DNA from: Candidatus Hodarchaeaceae archaeon
Lineage (GTDB): Archaea; Hadarchaeota; Hadarchaeia; Hadarchaeales; Hadarchaeaceae
Assembly: GCA_030018135.1 (NCBI GenBank)
Contig: JASEGJ010000002.1
Span: 1 to 64,000, forward strand
Direction of reading: 5' to 3'
DNA length: 64,000 bases
The position numbers and the translations under genes were made by a program. Each line of letters begins with the position of its first letter. The first letter of the stretch is position 1. Positions 17,893 to 54,922 of this stretch are shown in pieces. The notes below the pieces were generated by a model. The model did no database searches. It was not told the origin of the DNA and saw only the letters and a list, made by a program, of their open reading frames with translations.

Positions 17893-19179
17893 TTACATAA
17901 GCGTGAGCTGGCGCGGCAGCGTGAGTGCCTCCAAACCGCTGATGGAATAATCCTCTTGAATTGCCGCCCTTGCCTGTATCGCTTGGATATTCATGGTAAT
18001 CTCTTTGGTTCTGCCGTACCGCCCCTTACTGATGATACAAGCATTTATTATCCCCATCATGTCAAGCTCTGAAATCAAATCGCTGACGCGGCGGGAGGTC
18101 AGGATATCCAGACCGCTCTGACGGCATAGCATGCAGTAAACGCTGTAAACGTCCCCAGTGACGATCCTGCGGGCCCCGCGCTCCCCGAGGAGTATGATGC
18201 TGTATAGGACGAGCTTGGATTGCGTCGGCAGCGTGCGGATGACCTCCAGCATTTTGTCCTGTTCGATCTTCTGGAATGCGCGCCTGACATGTTCAACTGT
18301 AATCATTTCGGCCCCCTCTCGCTCTCCAAGTTCACCTGCGACGCGTAGCAAGTCAAGCGCCCGCCGCGCGTCTCCATGCTCTCTAGCTGCATGGGCCGCG
18401 CAAAGCCCTATCACCCCATTGTCCAAAACGCCGTCGATGAAGCTCATCGCTGCTCGCTTCTCCAAGATGTCCTTGAGCTGCAGCGCGTTATAAGGCGGAA
18501 ACACAAGTTCCTCCTCGCTGAGGCTGCTCCTTACGCGGGGGTCAAGGTATCCCATGAAGTTTAAATCGTTTGAGATGCCGACGATGCTGACCTTAGCGTT
18601 CTTGAGGTCTGAATTCATGCGGGTTAGGTTGTAGAGGACCCCATCGCCGCTCTTTAAGACCAGCTTATCTATTTCATCTAATACGATCACTGCAAGCTGT
18701 CTATCATGATCTATCGCATCGAAAAAGCATCGATAAACCTGGTCCGTTGGCCATCCGGTCATCGGAACTTGTTGGGGCATGCCAAACGAGCTTAGGCATC
18801 CGTGGCCATACCTTTCGCGCGCCTTCTCGAGGAAGACATTTGCCAGCGTCGCGAGGATGCGATACTGCGTATTAACGATCTCGCAATTCAGGTAAACCAC
18901 CTCAACTTTGCGTGGCGAACGGTCACTAACCCTCTCAAGTTCCTTCGTCACGTATCTCACGGTTGCTGTTTTGCCCGTGCCCGTCTTGCCGTAGATAAAC
19001 AAATTTGATGGTGTCTCCCCGCGCAGGGGTGCGGCGAGTATCCGCGCAAGCTGATGGATTTGCTCCTCACGGTGTGGTAGTTCCTCTGGTGTATAAGTTG
19101 GGCGCAGGTACTCCCTGTTTTTGAATATTGGTTTCGTTTCCAACAACATCTCGAATATTCCCTCCGAACTCTTCGTCAT
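17893..19179 (-). CDS. cdc6: Orc1/Cdc6 replication initiator
   Basis: 428 residues from ATG 19179, which has GAGGAGG 9 nt upstream. The AAA+ domain shows the conserved entry PIFKNREYLRPTYTPEELPH, Walker A (YGKTGTGKTATV), Walker B (VIVLDEIDKL) and sensor regions; the C-terminal winged helix recognises origin boxes. The protein loads MCM at origins. Its first 113 bp overlap the 3' end of the GINS gene in another frame, an unusually long overlap. The only origin-like region seen in the window is 36 kb away (about 55 kb), not beside this gene. Confidence 0.95.
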   Translation of the reverse strand: MTKSSEGIFEMLLETKPIFKNREYLRPTYTPEELPHREEQIHQLARILAAPLRGETPSNLFIYGKTGTGKTATVRYVTKELERVSDRSPRKVEVVYLNCEIVNTQYRILATLANVFLEKARERYGHGCLSSFGMPQQVPMTGWPTDQVYRCFFDAIDHDRQLAVIVLDEIDKLVLKSGDGVLYNLTRMNSDLKNAKVSIVGISNDLNFMGYLDPRVRSSLSEEELVFPPYNALQLKDILEKRAAMSFIDGVLDNGVIGLCAAHAAREHGDARRALDLLRVAGELGEREGAEMITVEHVRRAFQKIEQDKMLEVIRTLPTQSKLVLYSIILLGERGARRIVTGDVYSVYCMLCRQSGLDILTSRRVSDLISELDMMGIINACIISKGRYGRTKEITMNIQAIQARAAIQEDYSISGLEALTLPRQLTLM

Positions 19180-19672
19180 GTTTACCAGCCTCCTCTCCAG
19201 CTTTCTTTTCAAACAGCTTACTTAGCCACTGGCTCCAGCCCTCCAGAGCGATAGCTAAACGATTGACCAAAAATTTCTCCTCTGGTGGCAGATTTTCCGC
19301 GCTCGCGGGCGAAAGCGCCGACTGCAAGAGTTTCTGAACCCGCACCTCCAGCAGGGCATCCACCGCTGATTGAAACTCCTCAACTTTGTCCTGCTGACCA
19401 GTAGCCCGCAGGTACGCGATTTGTTGTGCAATTGAACTGTAAAAGTCAGGGGGCAGGGGTTCTAGCTGGTGAGATCGTTCCTCGACCAGCACCAGCTTCC
19501 GCAGCTCTATCGTCGTAAGCCTTTGAATTGGCTCGATATAACCATGTCGCTCAAGTACGCCAGCTTCCCATGGCTCGAACTCGGCCTCCTGTCCAGCCAC
19601 GAGCGGGCCTATCTGCCTACCCACCAATTTTATCGCCGGCAAATCCTTGATAACCCGAACGCGTTGTCCCAT
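19067..19672 (-). CDS. GINS complex subunit with B domain before A domain
   Basis: 201 residues. The N-terminal about 45 residues (VRVIKDLPAIKLVGRQIGPL ... VLERHGYIEPI) resemble the small GINS B domain. The following helical part (IELRKLVLVEER ... LPPDFYSSIAQQIAYL ... LPPEEKFLVNRL) resembles the A domain of Gins51, whose LPxDFY motif is clear. Gins51 normally has A before B, so the order here is permuted, as in Gins23/Psf2. GINS links MCM to polymerase. ATG 19672 lies 4 bp after the MCM stop. The last about 38 residues are read through the start of orc1 and look unstructured. Confidence 0.8.
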   Translation of the reverse strand: MGQRVRVIKDLPAIKLVGRQIGPLVAGQEAEFEPWEAGVLERHGYIEPIQRLTTIELRKLVLVEERSHQLEPLPPDFYSSIAQQIAYLRATGQQDKVEEFQSAVDALLEVRVQKLLQSALSPASAENLPPEEKFLVNRLAIALEGWSQWLSKLFEKKAGEEAGKHDEEFGGNIRDVVGNETNIQKQGVPAPNLYTRGTTTP

Positions 19673-19676
19673 GAAC

Positions 19677-21683
19677 TCACCTCACCGCGCGGCTGATCAT
19701 GCCCGGCTTTGGCTCGTAAAGATGGCCCCTCATTTTCTCCTTGTCGATCATCTCATCGACGAAGGACTCCTTGATGCCCTCCAGCGAGGCGAGGCGCTTT
19801 ATTTCACCGACGGGGGCTGCGCCACCATATTCGCCCTCGAGGTCCTTGATTATATCCAGCACGCGCTCCAGCTTCTCACGCTGCGACCTGCTTTTCCCCG
19901 TCATCAAGACATCGATGTCCACCCTGCCCGTCTCCGGGTCTATACCCGCCTCGTGTAGCGATATCTTCACCAACTTAATCGCCCGGTTCGCGTCCTCGAC
20001 AGTTATGCGGTCGCTCAAGCGCATCCTGGCATTGGCTTTTGTCAAACGCACGAGTGCCTCAAGTTGCCTAGCGGTGATTGGAAGCGGCATGTCTCCCTTT
20101 TCAGCGACTTTCCTCCACTCCACGAAGAAATCCTCGATTGCTTTCAACGGCTCCTTACCCTCGAACTTTGGGTCGATGTACTTGCGTGCGTAAATGATTA
20201 TCTTCCGCAAGGTGTCCATGTCGAGCGGGGGTTTAACAACTCGCGTTGGCTCGTGATGTAACTCGAGGATGTGGCGTGCGACGACGCGGTCCCGCTCAGC
20301 GAACGGCTCATCACGCATGATAAAGATCAGGTCGAAGCGAGAGAGGATCATCGGTGGCAAATTGATCTGTTCTGCGAGGGGTCTATACTTGTCGAATCTG
20401 CCGAGTGCTGGGTTCGCGGCGGCTAAAATTGCGGTGCGGGTGTTAAGCGTTGCGACGATGCCTGCCTTGGCCACGCTGACCGTTTGCTGCTCCATCGACT
20501 CAAGAATGGCGCTGGCATCCTCTTCGCTCATCTTGTCAAATTCATCTATGGCTGCAAGTCCTCCGTCGGATATCACCAGCGCCCCCGCCTCAAGTGCCCA
20601 ACCGCCGCCTATCTCGTCCCGGACAGCTGCTGCCGTGAGCCCGGCTCCCGTCGCCTTCTTACCCGAAGTGTAAAGGCCCCGCGGCGCGACCAGCGACGCC
20701 CATTTTAGGACCTCCGACTTAGCTGTCCCCGGGTCACCGGTCAAAAGAATATGGGTATCGCCCCGTTTACGAGTGCCGTCCGGCAGATCTATCGCCGGGC
20801 ACCCGAAGAGCTGTAGCGCTATGGCCTCTTTGATGGGCTCGTAACCGTATATGCTGGGTGCGATTGATTGAATGATTAAATTGCGGAGCCACTGATCCTT
20901 CGCCAGTTCTTTAATTCTTGCCTCGTCCTCTGGGCTGAGCTCCGCCTCCTCCACGCCCTTTTGTACGACCTCGATGTGGTTGACAAAAAGTATCTTGCGG
21001 AATGTCGTCTTACGTTGCCGTGGCATGCCCTCTTGAAATACGCGCAGGATTCCGGATATTATCACATGATTTCCGGGCACCGCTTTGTCGACGAAGTCGT
21101 CCTTTATAATTCCGTCAAGTTGGCGCGGCATCCGCCCGCCGCGCAGTTCCTCCGGGCGCTCTTGAACTCGAATGCTCTGCCAATCCCTGAACTCAGAGCT
21201 TTCGATCTCAAGTTTGAACGGTCCTTTTCTTGAGCAATTCGGGTTCTCACAAATCAACGGTTCCCTGAATACCTCGTCAATCTGCATCACCCGATTTTCC
21301 TCACCACAACGCAAACACTTGAACACGGATTCCTTGATTTCGGGCTTAACTTCGCTTACGCGCGTTATGATTCCCTCAACTTGGATGAACTTGCCGACCT
21401 GCGACGCGCGGATATCGCGTATGAGAGTGGCCTTATCTATGTTCTTAATGCGAAGATGCGCGCTAGGTAACTTGGTTATCTCCACCAAGATCGCGTCGGC
21501 TGTATCGAGGAAGTCGTTCGGGTGCTCCAGTAGGGCCTTAGCGAGTTCCATATCAAACTCGAGCAACCGCTCAAATTCGATGACGAGGGATTTTTGCCCC
21601 TTCGCCGCCAGCCTGCGGAGCTCCTTCAGAATCCCCCTGGCGTGTAGGAATTCCCCGAGCTTCTCTTTGACTGATGAATCCAA
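19677..21683 (-). CDS. mcm: MCM replicative helicase
   Basis: About 668 residues. The N-terminal domain carries a zinc site (CLRC ... CENPNC) and OB fold; the AAA+ domain has Walker A (GDPGTAKSEV), Walker B (LAAIDEFDKM) and the arginine finger (LSRFD); a C-terminal winged helix follows. The frame is open up to 21848, but the MCM-like sequence begins near TTG 21683, which has GGGGG 8 nt upstream; the upstream part is AT-rich and not MCM-like. It is first in the replication operon. The promoter about 240 bp upstream carries the conserved element also found before the primase-like and LAGLIDADG genes. Confidence 0.96.
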   Translation of the reverse strand: MDSSVKEKLGEFLHARGILKELRRLAAKGQKSLVIEFERLLEFDMELAKALLEHPNDFLDTADAILVEITKLPSAHLRIKNIDKATLIRDIRASQVGKFIQVEGIITRVSEVKPEIKESVFKCLRCGEENRVMQIDEVFREPLICENPNCSRKGPFKLEIESSEFRDWQSIRVQERPEELRGGRMPRQLDGIIKDDFVDKAVPGNHVIISGILRVFQEGMPRQRKTTFRKILFVNHIEVVQKGVEEAELSPEDEARIKELAKDQWLRNLIIQSIAPSIYGYEPIKEAIALQLFGCPAIDLPDGTRKRGDTHILLTGDPGTAKSEVLKWASLVAPRGLYTSGKKATGAGLTAAAVRDEIGGGWALEAGALVISDGGLAAIDEFDKMSEEDASAILESMEQQTVSVAKAGIVATLNTRTAILAAANPALGRFDKYRPLAEQINLPPMILSRFDLIFIMRDEPFAERDRVVARHILELHHEPTRVVKPPLDMDTLRKIIIYARKYIDPKFEGKEPLKAIEDFFVEWRKVAEKGDMPLPITARQLEALVRLTKANARMRLSDRITVEDANRAIKLVKISLHEAGIDPETGRVDIDVLMTGKSRSQREKLERVLDIIKDLEGEYGGAAPVGEIKRLASLEGIKESFVDEMIDKEKMRGHLYEPKPGMISRAVR

Positions 21684-22218
21684 GTTCGTTACCCCCAAGT
21701 GGCAATTGTCGAAAGGGATCCGATCCGGCTTATAGGAGTTGTCGTGCAAAAATTGAAGTTTATGTTTAAAAGAAAGGAAATTTTTAGATGCGGTTTGCTT
21801 ATAGATGTGTAAATTTTTTTGATTGTCAAATGCAATGCCCCTCCGCACTGAAACGGTCTAATTGGAAGCCCTATCCATCGAAGCCCCGTTGGTATCCCAT
21901 AAAAATCCTTGAAAGCTGATTTTAAAGCGTCTTTTGGGAGAGGTCACCGAAAGTAATCCCAATTTCCATTTATGGGGGTTTTAAAATTCCTTTCAAAAAT
22001 AACTTGATTTGGCCGAGATTTTCTATAAAACAAGTTCAAATCTCTGAGTTCCAGACGAAGCACTTGAAATAACAGGAAATTTAGGTTTGAAAGCTTCGAG
22101 TTTTGACTTAAGCTTCCGATTTTAAATCGCTCCGAATCTTGATATGCTGCAAGCACGAGCCCCTCAAAGCCCCTGATGTGAAAAATGTTTGACTTTTGCC
22201 TAAAAGGGATGATTGGGC
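21684..22218. other. Long intergenic/leader region upstream of MCM
   Basis: About 535 bp between the MCM start and the end of glyA. It is AT-rich, with many short poly-A/T tracts near the MCM start (21740-21830). The conserved promoter element lies at 21918-21958. No convincing origin boxes (TCCAGTGGAA type) are seen here. The predicted 5' leader of MCM is about 200 nt, long for an archaeal message, so either a later start or leader-based regulation is possible. 21960-22218 shows no recognised feature. Confidence 0.5.
21918..21958 (-). promoter_or_regulatory. Conserved upstream element plus TATA box, MCM promoter
   Basis: Read in the direction of MCM, GATTACTTTCGGTGACCTCT is followed by CCCAAAAGACG and the TATA-like CTTTAAAATC. 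The same block occurs before the primase-like gene (54281-54321) and, with one change in the core, before the LAGLIDADG gene (40844-40883), each time in the same orientation to the gene. Confidence 0.75.
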
Positions 22219-39945: not shown

Positions 39946-40822
39946 CGGAAAGCTCGTGCGTGATTACGAGCGGGCCGAACTGGTCTGCGCTACCTGCGGC
40001 TTCGTCATTTACGACAAGATCATGGACATGGGGCCGGAGTGGCGGGCCTTCGACCAGGAGCAGCGGGACAGGCGAGGGCGGGTAGGGGCCCCCATGACCT
40101 ACACCATCCACGATAAGGGCCTGTCGACCATGATCGACTGGCGGGACAGGGACAGCCACGGCAAGAACCTGACACCCAAGCGGAGGGCGCAAATTTACCG
40201 CCTTCGCAAGTGGCAGCGCAGGATCCGCGTTTCGGATGCCACCGAGCGCAACCTAGCCTTCGCGCTGTCCGAACTCGACCGAATGGCGTCGCACCTCGGG
40301 CTGCCCCGCAACGTGCGGGAGGCGGCGGCGGTGATTTACAGGCGGGCGGTTGAGGAGAGGCTGATCCGCGGGCGGTCCATCGAGGGCGTCGCGGCGGCGG
40401 CGCTGTACGCGGCCTGCAGGGAGTGCAAGGTCCCGCGCACGCTCGACGAGATCGCCGAGGTCTCCCGCGTTGGCAAGAAGGAGATCGGGCGCAGCTACCG
40501 CTTCATAGCCAGGGAGCTGCTGATCCACCTGCGCCCGACGAGCCCGATCGACTACGTCCCGCGCTTCGGGAGCGAGCTGGGCCTGTCAGGCGAGGTTCAG
40601 TCCAAGGCGGTGGAGCTGCTCAAGGAGGCCAGCAATAAGGGGCTGACCTCCGGGCGGGGGCCGACGGGAGTCGCTGCGGCTGCGATTTACATAGCCAGCG
40701 TGCTCCAGGGCGAGAGGCGGACGCAGCGGGATGTGGCCGATGTGGCACGGGTTACTGAGGTCACCGTGAGGAACCGATATAAAGAACTCTGCGAAAAGCT
40801 CGGATTAGACGTAGAGCTTTAA
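39902..40822 (+). CDS. tfb: Transcription initiation factor TFB
   Basis: 306 residues. The N-terminal zinc ribbon (CPECGSGK ... CATC), the B-finger/reader region (GPEWRAFD), and two cyclin repeats, the second ending in [20 protein letters not shown] (helix-turn-helix that reads BRE), are all present. No intein is present. TFB recruits RNA polymerase to TBP-bound promoters. It is translationally coupled to gar1 by a 44-bp overlap. A LAGLIDADG-protein gene follows about 95 bp downstream. Confidence 0.97.
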
Positions 40823-40843: not shown

Positions 40844-40883
40844 GATTACTTTCAGTGACCTCTCTCCCCAAAAGACGCTTAAA
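40844..40883 (+). promoter_or_regulatory. Conserved upstream element plus TATA box, LAGLIDADG gene promoter
   Basis: GATTACTTTCAGTGACCTCT, then CTCCCCAAAAGACG, then the TATA-like CTTAAAGC. It matches the MCM and primase-like promoters at almost every position, with one G-to-A change in the core. It lies about 35 bp before the gene. Confidence 0.75.
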
Positions 40884-40917
40884 GCGATGATGAGAGGGCT
40901 CCACGGAGGTGGTGAGT

Positions 40918-42084
40918 TTGAAGGAAATCGTTGGAGATCAGGATGGAGTTATCCTCGATACATTGGAGATGGTGCCGAGCGAAATTTCAGGGCGAAAAGT
41001 CGTTGCCAAAAGTTTAAGCAACAAGGTGGCCTTATATCCTCCCGCATCAGGGAAGTGGGGCGGAGGCAGAGAATCTAAAAAAGTCATCCTCAACAGAATC
41101 GTGCTATTGGATAGGCTGTTTTTTGAGGGACTTGGGCTATGGCAAGGTGAAGGAAGCAAGGGCAAGGGTATCTATTTTTGTAACTCTAACTTGCAAATCA
41201 TGCGCCATTTCTTAACGTTCGTCGAAGAAAAGCTAGGGTTACCAAGAGCTGACTTTAAAGTTACAGTCTGCACACCTCGCTCTAGCGAGCAGGATGAAAT
41301 CAGAGAGAAATTGTCCGAAGTGCTCGGAGTTCCGATCAACAATTTCACAGCTGTGTGCGTCGATCCCAGAATCAATAAGGAAAACGTTCAGGTATACATT
41401 AACTCGATTGTACTAGTTGAACTGCTAAAGAATTTACATGAAAAGTTGAAGCCGTTGATCAGATCGAATACAGAGTTCGCGGCAGCTTACCTACGGGGCA
41501 TATTTGCTGGAGAAGGCTCCGTGTTATTGAAAAAGTCCGGGGTTTTATTCCACGTTGACTTCGCTACCAAAGATGAAAGCTCAGTTGAGTTCTATAAACA
41601 ATGCCTCGATCTTCTCGGAATTGCACATGGCAAATATATGGAACGGAGTCTAAAATTTCAAATCTATGGCCGGCGAAATTTCCAACGCTTCAAGGAGCTC
41701 GACATCCACACCCTGCACCCGGAGAAGCATGTAAAGTTTGAACAAGGATTCGCAAACTACAAACGCACAAATGTGTTGGATGGTGAGGAAGCCCGATCGC
41801 TCATCATACAGCAACTCGCCTCGGGTCCGAAAACCTACGACGAGCTTGCGGCAGCGTTGGGTAAGGCTAGGACGACGATTCAAGCCCACCACATCCCGAT
41901 CCTCGAACGCCGAGGCCTCTTGAAATGTGTCGGGAAGCGTGGTCAAGCTTCGCTCTGGGCCCTTACGGAAGGCAAAATAACTCCACCGCCAAATGTTAAT
42001 CGAGCCCCATGCGAGGAACCTACGCCCTGCTCGTGCACGTGCCCTACGACCTCGCCGTCAGCGTGGGCGAGCTCGGCACGCTGA
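40918..42084 (+). CDS. Free-standing LAGLIDADG homing-endonuclease-like protein with C-terminal winged helix
   Basis: About 388 residues. Two LAGLIDADG motifs are present: FFEGLGLWQGEGS (near residue 65) and AYLRGIFAGEGSVLL (near residue 195). In both the acidic metal-binding residue appears as Glu in the GEGS ending. A winged helix (SGPKTYDELAAALGKARTTIQAHHIPIL) follows at about residues 300-345. It is not inside an intein or intron: tfb upstream is intact. Such HTH fusions could be regulators instead of nucleases. TTG 40918 has GGAGG 8 nt upstream; GTG codons at 40909 and 40912 are too close to it. The 3' end overlaps the GIY-YIG gene by 76 bp. Confidence 0.82.
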   Translation: MKEIVGDQDGVILDTLEMVPSEISGRKVVAKSLSNKVALYPPASGKWGGGRESKKVILNRIVLLDRLFFEGLGLWQGEGSKGKGIYFCNSNLQIMRHFLTFVEEKLGLPRADFKVTVCTPRSSEQDEIREKLSEVLGVPINNFTAVCVDPRINKENVQVYINSIVLVELLKNLHEKLKPLIRSNTEFAAAYLRGIFAGEGSVLLKKSGVLFHVDFATKDESSVEFYKQCLDLLGIAHGKYMERSLKFQIYGRRNFQRFKELDIHTLHPEKHVKFEQGFANYKRTNVLDGEEARSLIIQQLASGPKTYDELAAALGKARTTIQAHHIPILERRGLLKCVGKRGQASLWALTEGKITPPPNVNRAPCEEPTPCSCTCPTTSPSAWASSAR

Positions 42085-52643: not shown

Positions 52644-53279
52644 CTACTTTAGAACCTCCCCAGTTTTCAAATACCACAGGTAGAGGTCCAACTCAGCTAA
52701 GGATATGCCGAGTCTCTTCGCCAGCTTCGCCAGCTTCCCCTCGATCTCCAAATATTTTTTCCCTGTCAGAGTTTTCGGTGCCCGATCTATCATTCCGTGC
52801 TCGTGCATGACCGAGAGGATATGCCTATCCAAAATTGCTATGTCATCGAAGCCAACGTTCCTCAAAAAATGACTTGCCTCTTTGTAGCCGATGCCTTTTA
52901 CATTTTTGACCAACCACTCCCTCGCGCTTTTGGCGTCCGAGAACTTTTTGATGATGTTTTTTATGTTTCTAAACCTTCTCGCCTCGCAGATGAACTCCGC
53001 CCTGTTGCTGTAAAATCTATGCCCCATTTTTCTGAGCCTGTTCATGAGCTCAATTTTTGATAATGTTGAGAACCCTTCGCTGCCCAACTCCCGCTGAATC
53101 TTTACTCCCAACTTGGCGGAGGAGTTGGCGGTTAGGATGCAAAAACAAAGCTCCGAGAACCATTCGTCCGTGCCTCTCCTCCCGAGCCCATTGAACATCC
53201 GCATTCTTTCGCCGACTATTCTGCTAACATCGCCCGAGCTCAGCGCCTTCACTTGCTCGACAAGCGCGTCTGCGTCCAT
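52644..53279 (-). CDS. ogg: 8-oxoguanine DNA glycosylase, archaeal OGG2 type
   Basis: 211 residues from ATG 53279. The HhH-GPD core VKGIGYKEASHFLRNVG contains the catalytic Lys, and the essential Asp follows in AILDRHIL; FCILTANSSAKLGVKIQ and the C-terminal LDLYLWYLKTG match the OGG2 family. It removes oxidised guanine by beta-elimination. Single gene unit: convergent to the radical-SAM gene and about 140 bp from the primase-like gene. Confidence 0.92.
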   Translation of the reverse strand: MDADALVEQVKALSSGDVSRIVGERMRMFNGLGRRGTDEWFSELCFCILTANSSAKLGVKIQRELGSEGFSTLSKIELMNRLRKMGHRFYSNRAEFICEARRFRNIKNIIKKFSDAKSAREWLVKNVKGIGYKEASHFLRNVGFDDIAILDRHILSVMHEHGMIDRAPKTLTGKKYLEIEGKLAKLAKRLGISLAELDLYLWYLKTGEVLK

Positions 53280-53420
53280 CAAACCACGCTTTAGCCTAAG
53301 TTGCTACTTTATCCTCCAAAATTGTTGCTGGGTAAACCCTTGAGATTCAATCGGACGCATCTATTTTTAACCCTTGATGGGCCCCTTAAAATCATCAAAA
53401 TCGTGATACCATTGAGCAGC

Positions 53421-54251
53421 CTACGGCGCGGTCGCTTCCACCGCCGCATCGAGCTGCCCTTGCGTGAATTTTAGCAACTCGTGCGCAGTACATGGGGGTA
53501 TCTTCCAATCGTGCATCGCTGCATCTACTGGGCTTGCATCGAGCACTGAAAAGTTTGCCACCTGTTCGGGCGCGAGCGGCAGCGATACCAAGCCCGACTT
53601 CGGATTGAGGCTCATCGGTGCCAACAAAAGACCTCGCCTCAACCGAAGTTCGGAGAGGAGGCAGGTGTCCAATCCCATTTTAACAATAATCTGGGGGCCA
53701 GTTGCATCGATGCAAAAACTAGAGCATCGCTCGATCAAATAGCCCGCAATATATCTCGTTAGCGTTCCCTGAATGTCGCTTAATACTTCCACGTTATCGA
53801 ACCCCGCGTCGTAGGGGATCGCCTCGAGGGGGATGATGAGATCGAAGCCGAGTTCGCCGGAGTACTTGACCCATGGCTCGGAAAGCCCACCATCTGATAG
53901 CGCATCCAACACGGCGATCGTAACCTTTTTGGCGAAATTTAATCCGCCATTGGTCGAGCGAATGGTCCAAACCAAATCATGGCCGAGCGAATGGTGTGGC
54001 TCCCGCGGCTGCGCGTAGCGCCAGTAGGATGCGTAAAAGGCCGTTGCGCCAGCGCGCAAAGCCAACTCTATCGTTGCCTCTGAGTCGAAAACCACCGGGC
54101 GCCCGCGCTCGGCATCCTCTGAGGTGAGGTAACGCTGTACGCTCTTGGTGCGTCGGTTGAAGAATGCGCACTCTCGCACGGCGGTGCCGTTGCCTGCACG
54201 CGCGAAATCCAGGATCGCCCGTTTGACGTCCGATCGTCTGTAGTAGTTCAT
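53421..54251 (-). CDS. Degenerate primase (AEP superfamily, PriS-like) protein
   Basis: 276 residues from ATG 54251 (GGGGAG 6 nt upstream). Family-like segments: MNYYRRSDVKRAILDFA, HDLVWTIRST where the catalytic DxD normally stands, KYSGELGFDLIIP where SGxxGFH stands, and MGLDTCLLSEL with SLNPKSGLVSLPL, the third motif region of PriS (LR-SLHxKTGL type). Only the third-motif Asp is kept; DxD is replaced by TxR and the His by Asp. So it is probably catalytically dead. It is short for PriS (about 340-400). The promoter carries the MCM-type conserved element. Next to a candidate oriC. Confidence 0.75.
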   Translation of the reverse strand: MNYYRRSDVKRAILDFARAGNGTAVRECAFFNRRTKSVQRYLTSEDAERGRPVVFDSEATIELALRAGATAFYASYWRYAQPREPHHSLGHDLVWTIRSTNGGLNFAKKVTIAVLDALSDGGLSEPWVKYSGELGFDLIIPLEAIPYDAGFDNVEVLSDIQGTLTRYIAGYLIERCSSFCIDATGPQIIVKMGLDTCLLSELRLRRGLLLAPMSLNPKSGLVSLPLAPEQVANFSVLDASPVDAAMHDWKIPPCTAHELLKFTQGQLDAAVEATAP

Positions 54252-54280: not shown

Positions 54281-54321
54281 TTTTAAGCGGTTTTGGGGGA
54301 GAGAGGTCACCGAAAGTAATC
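54281..54321 (-). promoter_or_regulatory. Conserved upstream element plus TATA box, primase-like gene promoter
   Basis: In gene direction: GATTACTTTCGGTGACCTCT, then CTCCCCCAAAACCG, then TATA-like CTTAAAAGC about 30 nt before ATG 54251, so the message is almost leaderless. Shared with the MCM and LAGLIDADG promoters. Confidence 0.78.
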
Positions 54322-54355: not shown

Positions 54356-54922
54356 TTAAACGGATTTTCTCAATATCGCAAGCTGAGTCTCGAGCTTGTT
54401 CGAGAATTCCTGATCATCAGACCAATCGAGGCGCACCAGTTCCTCCGCCGCCCGAAGTGTGCGATGGATGCGCTCGGTGACCTCTGGGCTAAGCCCGCCC
54501 CGCCCCGCAAGGCCGCAAAGTTCGGCGATCTCGCTGGTGAGCGAGGTCTGCTCCCCATGTCCCACCAATATAGACCTGCCCAGCGCTTCTTCCATCGCCC
54601 TCAACCTCAGATCCGCTGGCAGTATTGCATCAAAGCTATGGAGTTCCATCGGTTGCCAAGCCGGGCTTGAGAAGAATGAACTGAGCTTGGGTGCGGCTGC
54701 TGCTGGAACCGCTATGACGCTTTTTCCGAGCTTGAGGTGGGGGATGCCCGTGAGCAAGCCCGGGCTGATGTGCTGGTAAGTCTTCGTCGAGCCATCCCTG
54801 CCGAGGTACCTCACTCGGGTGGAAAAGCCGAAGAGTTTACGGTAAAACGATGTCCGCCTAGTGCCCGTGAACTTGATGTCAAAACTAAATACGTGGGCAA
54901 GGGTTTGGAGCCTTTTCGACAT
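54356..54922 (-). CDS. Unknown protein, probable partner of the primase-like gene
   Basis: 188 residues, not recognised. The N-terminal half is strand-rich and aromatic (HVFSFDIKFTGTRRTSFYRK, then TYQHISPGLLTGIPHLKLGK). A segment LHSFDAILPADLRLRAMEEAL and a C-terminal helical pair follow. No zinc sites or membrane segments. It lies directly upstream of the primase-like gene on the same strand and directly beside the origin-like region, so a role in initiation or in regulating the primase-like protein is possible. The repeat TTTGATACATRTGTA at its promoter could be its own operator. Confidence 0.55.
   Translation of the reverse strand: MSKRLQTLAHVFSFDIKFTGTRRTSFYRKLFGFSTRVRYLGRDGSTKTYQHISPGLLTGIPHLKLGKSVIAVPAAAAPKLSSFFSSPAWQPMELHSFDAILPADLRLRAMEEALGRSILVGHGEQTSLTSEIAELCGLAGRGGLSPEVTERIHRTLRAAEELVRLDWSDDQEFSNKLETQLAILRKSV

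Follow-up and report, generated by a model that had tools for sequence, protein, structure and literature searches.

A promoter-locked operator shared by repair and mobile genes of Hadarchaeota, with Orc1-2 as its candidate regulator

The window, the whole 64,000-nucleotide stretch analysed here, comes from G000, a Hadarchaeota MAG (1.1 Mb, 45 contigs), and carries one sequence element in the promoters of mcm, of a LAGLIDADG gene and of a Prim-Pol-like gene. The relevant features are the following.

17893 to 19212, minus strand: orc1-1, an initiator-type Orc1/Cdc6 gene, downstream of mcm and GINS
19067 to 19672, minus strand: GINS gene (Sld5 domain, Pfam PF05916), downstream of mcm
19677 to 21848, minus strand: mcm helicase gene (Pfam MCM, 3e-89)
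21920 to 21927, minus strand: TATA-like box CTTTAAAA of the mcm promoter, assigned by spacing class
21939 to 21958, minus strand: candidate Orc1-2-box-type operator upstream of mcm, GATTACTTTCGGTGACCTCT, an exact match; the element also precedes mcm in 17 of 19 f1/f2 genomes
40844 to 40863, plus strand: predicted operator upstream of the LAGLIDADG gene, GATTACTTTCAGTGACCTCT
40878 to 40883, plus strand: TATA-like box CTTAAA of the LAGLIDADG promoter
40909 to 42084, plus strand: LAGLIDADG_3 and winged-helix (HTH) gene, stand-alone and homing-endonuclease-like (Pfam)
52644 to 53282, minus strand: 8-oxoguanine DNA glycosylase gene (Ogg-HhH, Pfam PF22175, 4e-68), downstream of the Prim-Pol-like gene
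53421 to 54251, minus strand: Prim-Pol/LigD-PolDom-like gene, AEP fold (AlphaFold model, Foldseek, alignment A1)
54281 to 54287, minus strand: TATA-like box CTTAAAA of the Prim-Pol-like promoter
54302 to 54321, minus strand: predicted operator upstream of the Prim-Pol-like gene, GATTACTTTCGGTGACCTCT

The labels that the first-pass annotation had given to the three genes hold, the primase-like one being Prim-Pol-like and the LAGLIDADG one a LAGLIDADG_3 gene with an HTH domain. GINS is probably co-transcribed with mcm, and the orc1-1 gene beyond it is not the presumed regulator discussed below. The LAGLIDADG gene clusters with motif-bearing genes of G003, G001 and G004. The model of the Prim-Pol-like protein (mean pLDDT 72) resembles Prim-PolC and LigD polymerase domains in Foldseek (6sa1, E 6e-6; 2iru, 3e-4). 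Its motif-I region, read by eye, is LVWTxR, with the usual aspartates apparently replaced, which makes catalysis by this protein appear doubtful; the family is conserved in Hadarchaeota, where these aspartates are apparently missing. The glycosylase gene possibly shares one transcript with it.

The string GATTACTTTCRGTGACCTCT occurs exactly at 21939-21958 (-), 40844-40863 (+) and 54302-54321 (-), three copies against none expected in 100 shuffles; the three-copy element of the first-pass annotation is real. Each copy is followed, as had been described, by a TATA-like box (21927-21920, 40878-40883 and 54287-54281). Two of these main sites are preceded, at distances of about 90 and 150 bp and within upstream coding sequence, by weak inverted copies at 40757-40771 (-) and 54470-54484 (+), with three mismatches and GGTGACCTC intact, which may be chance.

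Across G000, a pattern search allowing up to two mismatches returned 16 places and none with the reversed control. One of them (L010) looks like a chance match, and a wider search contributed two further two-mismatch sites that look real (L221 and L222), giving 17 copies, while two others of that kind (L223 and L224) look like chance. At three mismatches there were 90 matches versus 37 in the control, mostly noise and left uninterpreted. The consensus of the shared element is AWTACTTTCGGTGACCTCTCYCC (about 32 bits), with ACTTTC present in 17 of 17 aligned sites. The register is strictly kept over about 22 bp, from -3 to +18 around ACTTTC, beyond which the alignment falls to background, and mean information is 1.66 bits at positions 0 to 14 versus 0.05 in the upstream flank. 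Thus, the claim that nearly every base is kept over 40 bp is correct for the three window copies, whereas genome-wide the strict part is about 22 bp. On the 3' side of the conserved block follow a C tract, an AAAA/BRE stretch and a TATA-like box with 1-3 bp of slack. In both Hadarchaeota and Methanomassiliicoccales, ACTTTC lies 24-30 bp upstream of the TATA box, at a median distance of 30 bp in the former (51 sites with a recognisable TATA) and 25 bp in the latter. The operator as a whole has no dyad and is non-palindromic.

The repair and replication targets in G000 comprise mcm (with GINS and orc1-1 downstream), radA, nurA, topoVI-B and the Prim-Pol-like gene, together with an XPF/Hef-type helicase, a Hel308-type helicase with an intein and an SplB-like radical SAM gene. 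The last three names follow the character of the sequences, Pfam assigning just helicase and radical-SAM domains. About half of the copies are associated with mobile genes, namely several LAGLIDADG genes and IS200/IS605 TnpA and TnpB genes or their remnants, and a B3/4-domain gene has a copy 325 bp away. None of ups, ced and tfb3 appears among the annotated sites, a list that is non-exhaustive; the TFB gene in the window is full length.

Within Hadarchaeota, most genomes of the window's family and its sister family (f1/f2) hold several copies of the element. An mcm gene was located in 19 f1/f2 genomes, and in 17 of them the element lies upstream of it; G007 and G011 are the two without, and in G011 a contig end interrupts the region. 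The orthologs of radA, nurA and the Prim-Pol-like gene keep the element across genera, the last in nine other genomes. The common regulator proposed in the first-pass annotation is therefore strongly supported, by 17 genomic copies before replication, repair and element genes and by the retention at mcm, and the extended scan of the genome and its relatives yielded further copies before genes of the same kinds. The modified general transcription factor offered as its alternative is superfluous as an explanation. In family f3, two mcm promoters carry the variant AACTTCGGGTCAYC, and the recognition helix of Orc1-2 reads HST/HSR instead of HTQ (L192, L193, L196; L266, L267), a pairing in which operator and helix possibly co-vary.

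Among 394 archaeal genomes scanned, exact matches were concentrated in Hadarchaeales, G049 and family f35, which we take to be Methanomassiliicoccales. Pattern matches in the named genome collection fell mostly in Hadesarchaea/Hadarchaeum MAGs, plus the JACRDV "Euryarchaeota archaeon", which is G049; three bacterial matches look like chance, and the viral contigs searched for the element gave 0 matches. Exact matches were present in 57 of 120 Methanomassiliicoccales genomes, with about 1 in the control, and the targets there include radA, hef, hjc, RPA-like genes, an Mre11-type phosphoesterase, YhcG nucleases, Bro-N proteins and TnpB. The radA promoter carried the element in all five genomes inspected, in two of them in degenerate form. 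TTTCGG is often repeated in 9-10 bp steps in this order and at 0 of 95 Hadarchaeota sites. At three loci (L297, L304 and L306), what follows the element is a short stretch that looks transcribed but lacks a long ORF; these stretches have GCATCCCC in common and end T-rich, and are possibly damage-regulated small RNAs. In G198 (L448, L449, L450 and L451), YhcG-type PDDEXK nucleases and Bro-N proteins lie downstream of the element, suggesting defence or mobile genes within the regulon.

In a further distant family, f40, eight genomes sized about 3 Mb were searched and seven of them held exact matches, eight in total: six at orc1-2 promoters, 80-96 bp upstream, and two at promoters of nre, a repair gene required against mitomycin C in Haloferax (PMC4929162). 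The element thus precedes nre in f40 (L437/L443) and the SplB-like gene in Hadarchaeota (L006); in diverse archaea the two kinds of gene sit side by side (PMC4929162), a hint that they serve one repair pathway. In G049, a lineage apart, the motif is followed by orc1-2 and then radA on the same strand. The same genome holds several copies within a repeated promoter block (ACTTGTTTTTTGTTCGG...; L080, L081, L085 and L088), perhaps a mobile element family bearing the operator.

In S. islandicus, Orc1-2 binds ANTTTC (PMC9738581), and in S. acidocaldarius ACTTTC upstream of the BRE is essential for the activity of the UV-inducible upsE promoter (PMC5817253). When a PWM trained on 58 Hadarchaeota sites only was applied to about 76 Orc1/Cdc6 promoters, the five best-scoring ones all belonged to the Orc1-2 clade: G049 (30.2 bits, z 8.5), G079 (21.8 bits, z 6.9), G042 and G037, both with a degenerate element (15.9 bits, z 6.1 and 5.0 bits, z 4.0), and G007 (2.2 bits, z 3.6). 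None of the Orc1-1 promoters in that set exceeded z 3.1. The likeness to ANTTTC, which had been noted as perhaps fortuitous, is probably real, because distant orc1-2 promoters carry the extended element and Orc1-2 binds ANTTTC in Sulfolobales. The orc1-2 promoters of Hadarchaeota and Methanomassiliicoccales that were examined held no clear copy, so orc1-2 autoregulation is not universal, and the orc1-2 promoter of G168 (AGTTTCGGTTA), a genome with three Orc1 genes that is probably a member of the Sulfolobales, scored no better than shuffles with the matrix and was left out of the count.

An ML tree splits the Orc1-1 and Orc1-2 clades with 100/100 support and places the proteins of Hadarchaeota, G049, Methanomassiliicoccales, f40 and G168 in the Orc1-2 clade. 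The DNA-binding arginines R353/R354 and R381/R383 are all four matched in G168 at a two-residue offset; Hadarchaeota Orc1-2 retain PRxHTQ and xRG, with R354 and R383 varying. Orc1-2 also occurs in lineages without the element, so its presence alone is no proof of the regulator, and Orc1 copy number was uninformative as a discriminator, two paralogs being found nearly everywhere. On sequence grounds, Orc1-2 is the best candidate regulator.

We consider it likely that the block serves a DNA-repair regulon as a transcription-factor operator fused to the core promoter, and that its factor is most likely Orc1-2. In this model, Orc1-2, the non-initiator Orc1/Cdc6 paralog behind the DNA-damage response of Sulfolobales, would bind ACTTTCGGTGACC together with the pyrimidine tract that immediately precedes BRE/TATA and, after DNA damage, would alter TFB/TBP recruitment, most likely activating genes of recombination, fork repair and lesion processing, and mobile genes (TnpA/TnpB, LAGLIDADG, transposases) would have acquired the same operator. 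The analysis shows the element with its placement, targets and conservation, its link to orc1-2 promoters and the orthology of Orc1-2; we infer that Orc1-2 binds it directly in these species, that damage is the signal and that genes are activated, not repressed. Archaeal activators bind upstream of BRE/TATA (PMC5817253), which is where the operator lies, and damage-triggered activation is thus the likely mode; since replication and division genes are down-regulated in the S. islandicus damage response (PMC10470591), the effect at mcm may be of either sign.

Another transcription factor could read the operator, with orc1-2 merely one of its targets, as the Hadarchaeota and Methanomassiliicoccales orc1-2 promoters without a good copy would allow. 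This is unlikely, for in f40 orc1-2 is nearly the sole target in 3-Mb genomes (six of eight exact matches), an autoregulation pattern, the core agrees with ANTTTC, the established Orc1-2 site (PMC9738581, PMC5817253), and the altered recognition helix of f3 accompanies an altered mcm element. We also regard as rather improbable that the element ties transcription to the replication cycle, as an S-phase-like box, and not to damage: mcm with GINS and orc1-1, RPA and radA are indeed replication-linked, but a good number of the targets serve repair specifically (nurA, hef, hjc, hel308, SplB-like, nre, and the Prim-Pol-like gene with its glycosylase), and the Sulfolobales counterpart responds to damage.

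That these are origin recognition boxes of the initiator Orc1 is very improbable and was rejected, as orc1-1 promoters carry no copy; moreover, the G000 sites occur singly on many different contigs, each in a fixed relation to a TATA box, even though the element is probably read by an Orc1-type protein and the window has an orc1-1 gene close by. A dispersed repeat or mobile-element end with chance host neighbours hardly merits credence: despite the share of G000 copies at mobile genes, the common sequence is limited to about 22 bp between unrelated flanks, its orientation and its distance to TATA do not vary freely, and orthologous host promoters retain the copy across genera and phyla. A repeat or MITE was accordingly rejected for its unrelated flanks, and neither a dispersed repeat unlinked to gene starts nor an absence of the block before mcm in close relatives at large, the outcomes that would have spoken against a regulatory element, was found.

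In bacteria, LexA/SOS operators are dispersed before recombinase, helicase, nuclease and polymerase-like genes and mobile elements. The operators described here are likewise dispersed before repair-type and mobile genes, but they have no LexA-type dyad and sit in an activator-like position upstream of BRE/TATA, and their likely regulator is an AAA+ Orc1 paralog. As with Orc1-1 ORBs, the protein bound, here putatively, is a paralog of the same fold, whereas the element is promoter-locked, non-palindromic as a whole and unclustered at origins. Closer is the Sulfolobales Orc1-2/DDRE (ANTTTC) regulon, which shares the ACTTTC core upstream of BRE/TATA, a protein of the Orc1-2 clade, the orc1-2 promoter as a target in some element-bearing lineages, and nurA and Mre11-type genes as targets, herA-mre11-rad50-nurA being induced in S. 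islandicus (PMC10470591). It differs in having a hexamer rather than a 22-bp operator, and the Sulfolobus hexamer lies at -44 to -39 from the TSS (PMC5817253), whereas the longer ACTTTC-TATA spacing here (24-30 bp) suggests, judged from TATA, a place some 10-15 bp further upstream. Here, in addition, copies are often tandem in Methanomassiliicoccales, radA, hef, hjc, RPA-like genes and hel308 carry the operator directly, and so do mobile elements. The system resembles the Sulfolobales Orc1-2 damage response in its working and probably belongs to it, with a much longer operator and other spacing.

Literature searches with the exact sequence, and for a repair regulon in Methanomassiliicoccales or Hadarchaeota, brought up no relevant work, and to our knowledge a transcriptional DNA-damage response with a defined regulator has been described for Sulfolobales only. 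We lean towards the view that an Orc1-2-governed, SOS-like regulon with one operator predates the split of the major archaeal phyla, that it covers core recombination genes in Hadarchaeota and Methanomassiliicoccales, and that unrelated mobile elements (TnpB/TnpA, LAGLIDADG, DDE transposases) repeatedly joined it. One operator at recombination and fork-repair genes of distant lineages suggests an old and widespread SOS-like response in archaea, a question now directly testable, including in cultured Methanomassiliicoccales. The element is also a computable handle for finding unknown repair genes, and its presence at transposons and homing genes suggests that these time their activity to host repair.
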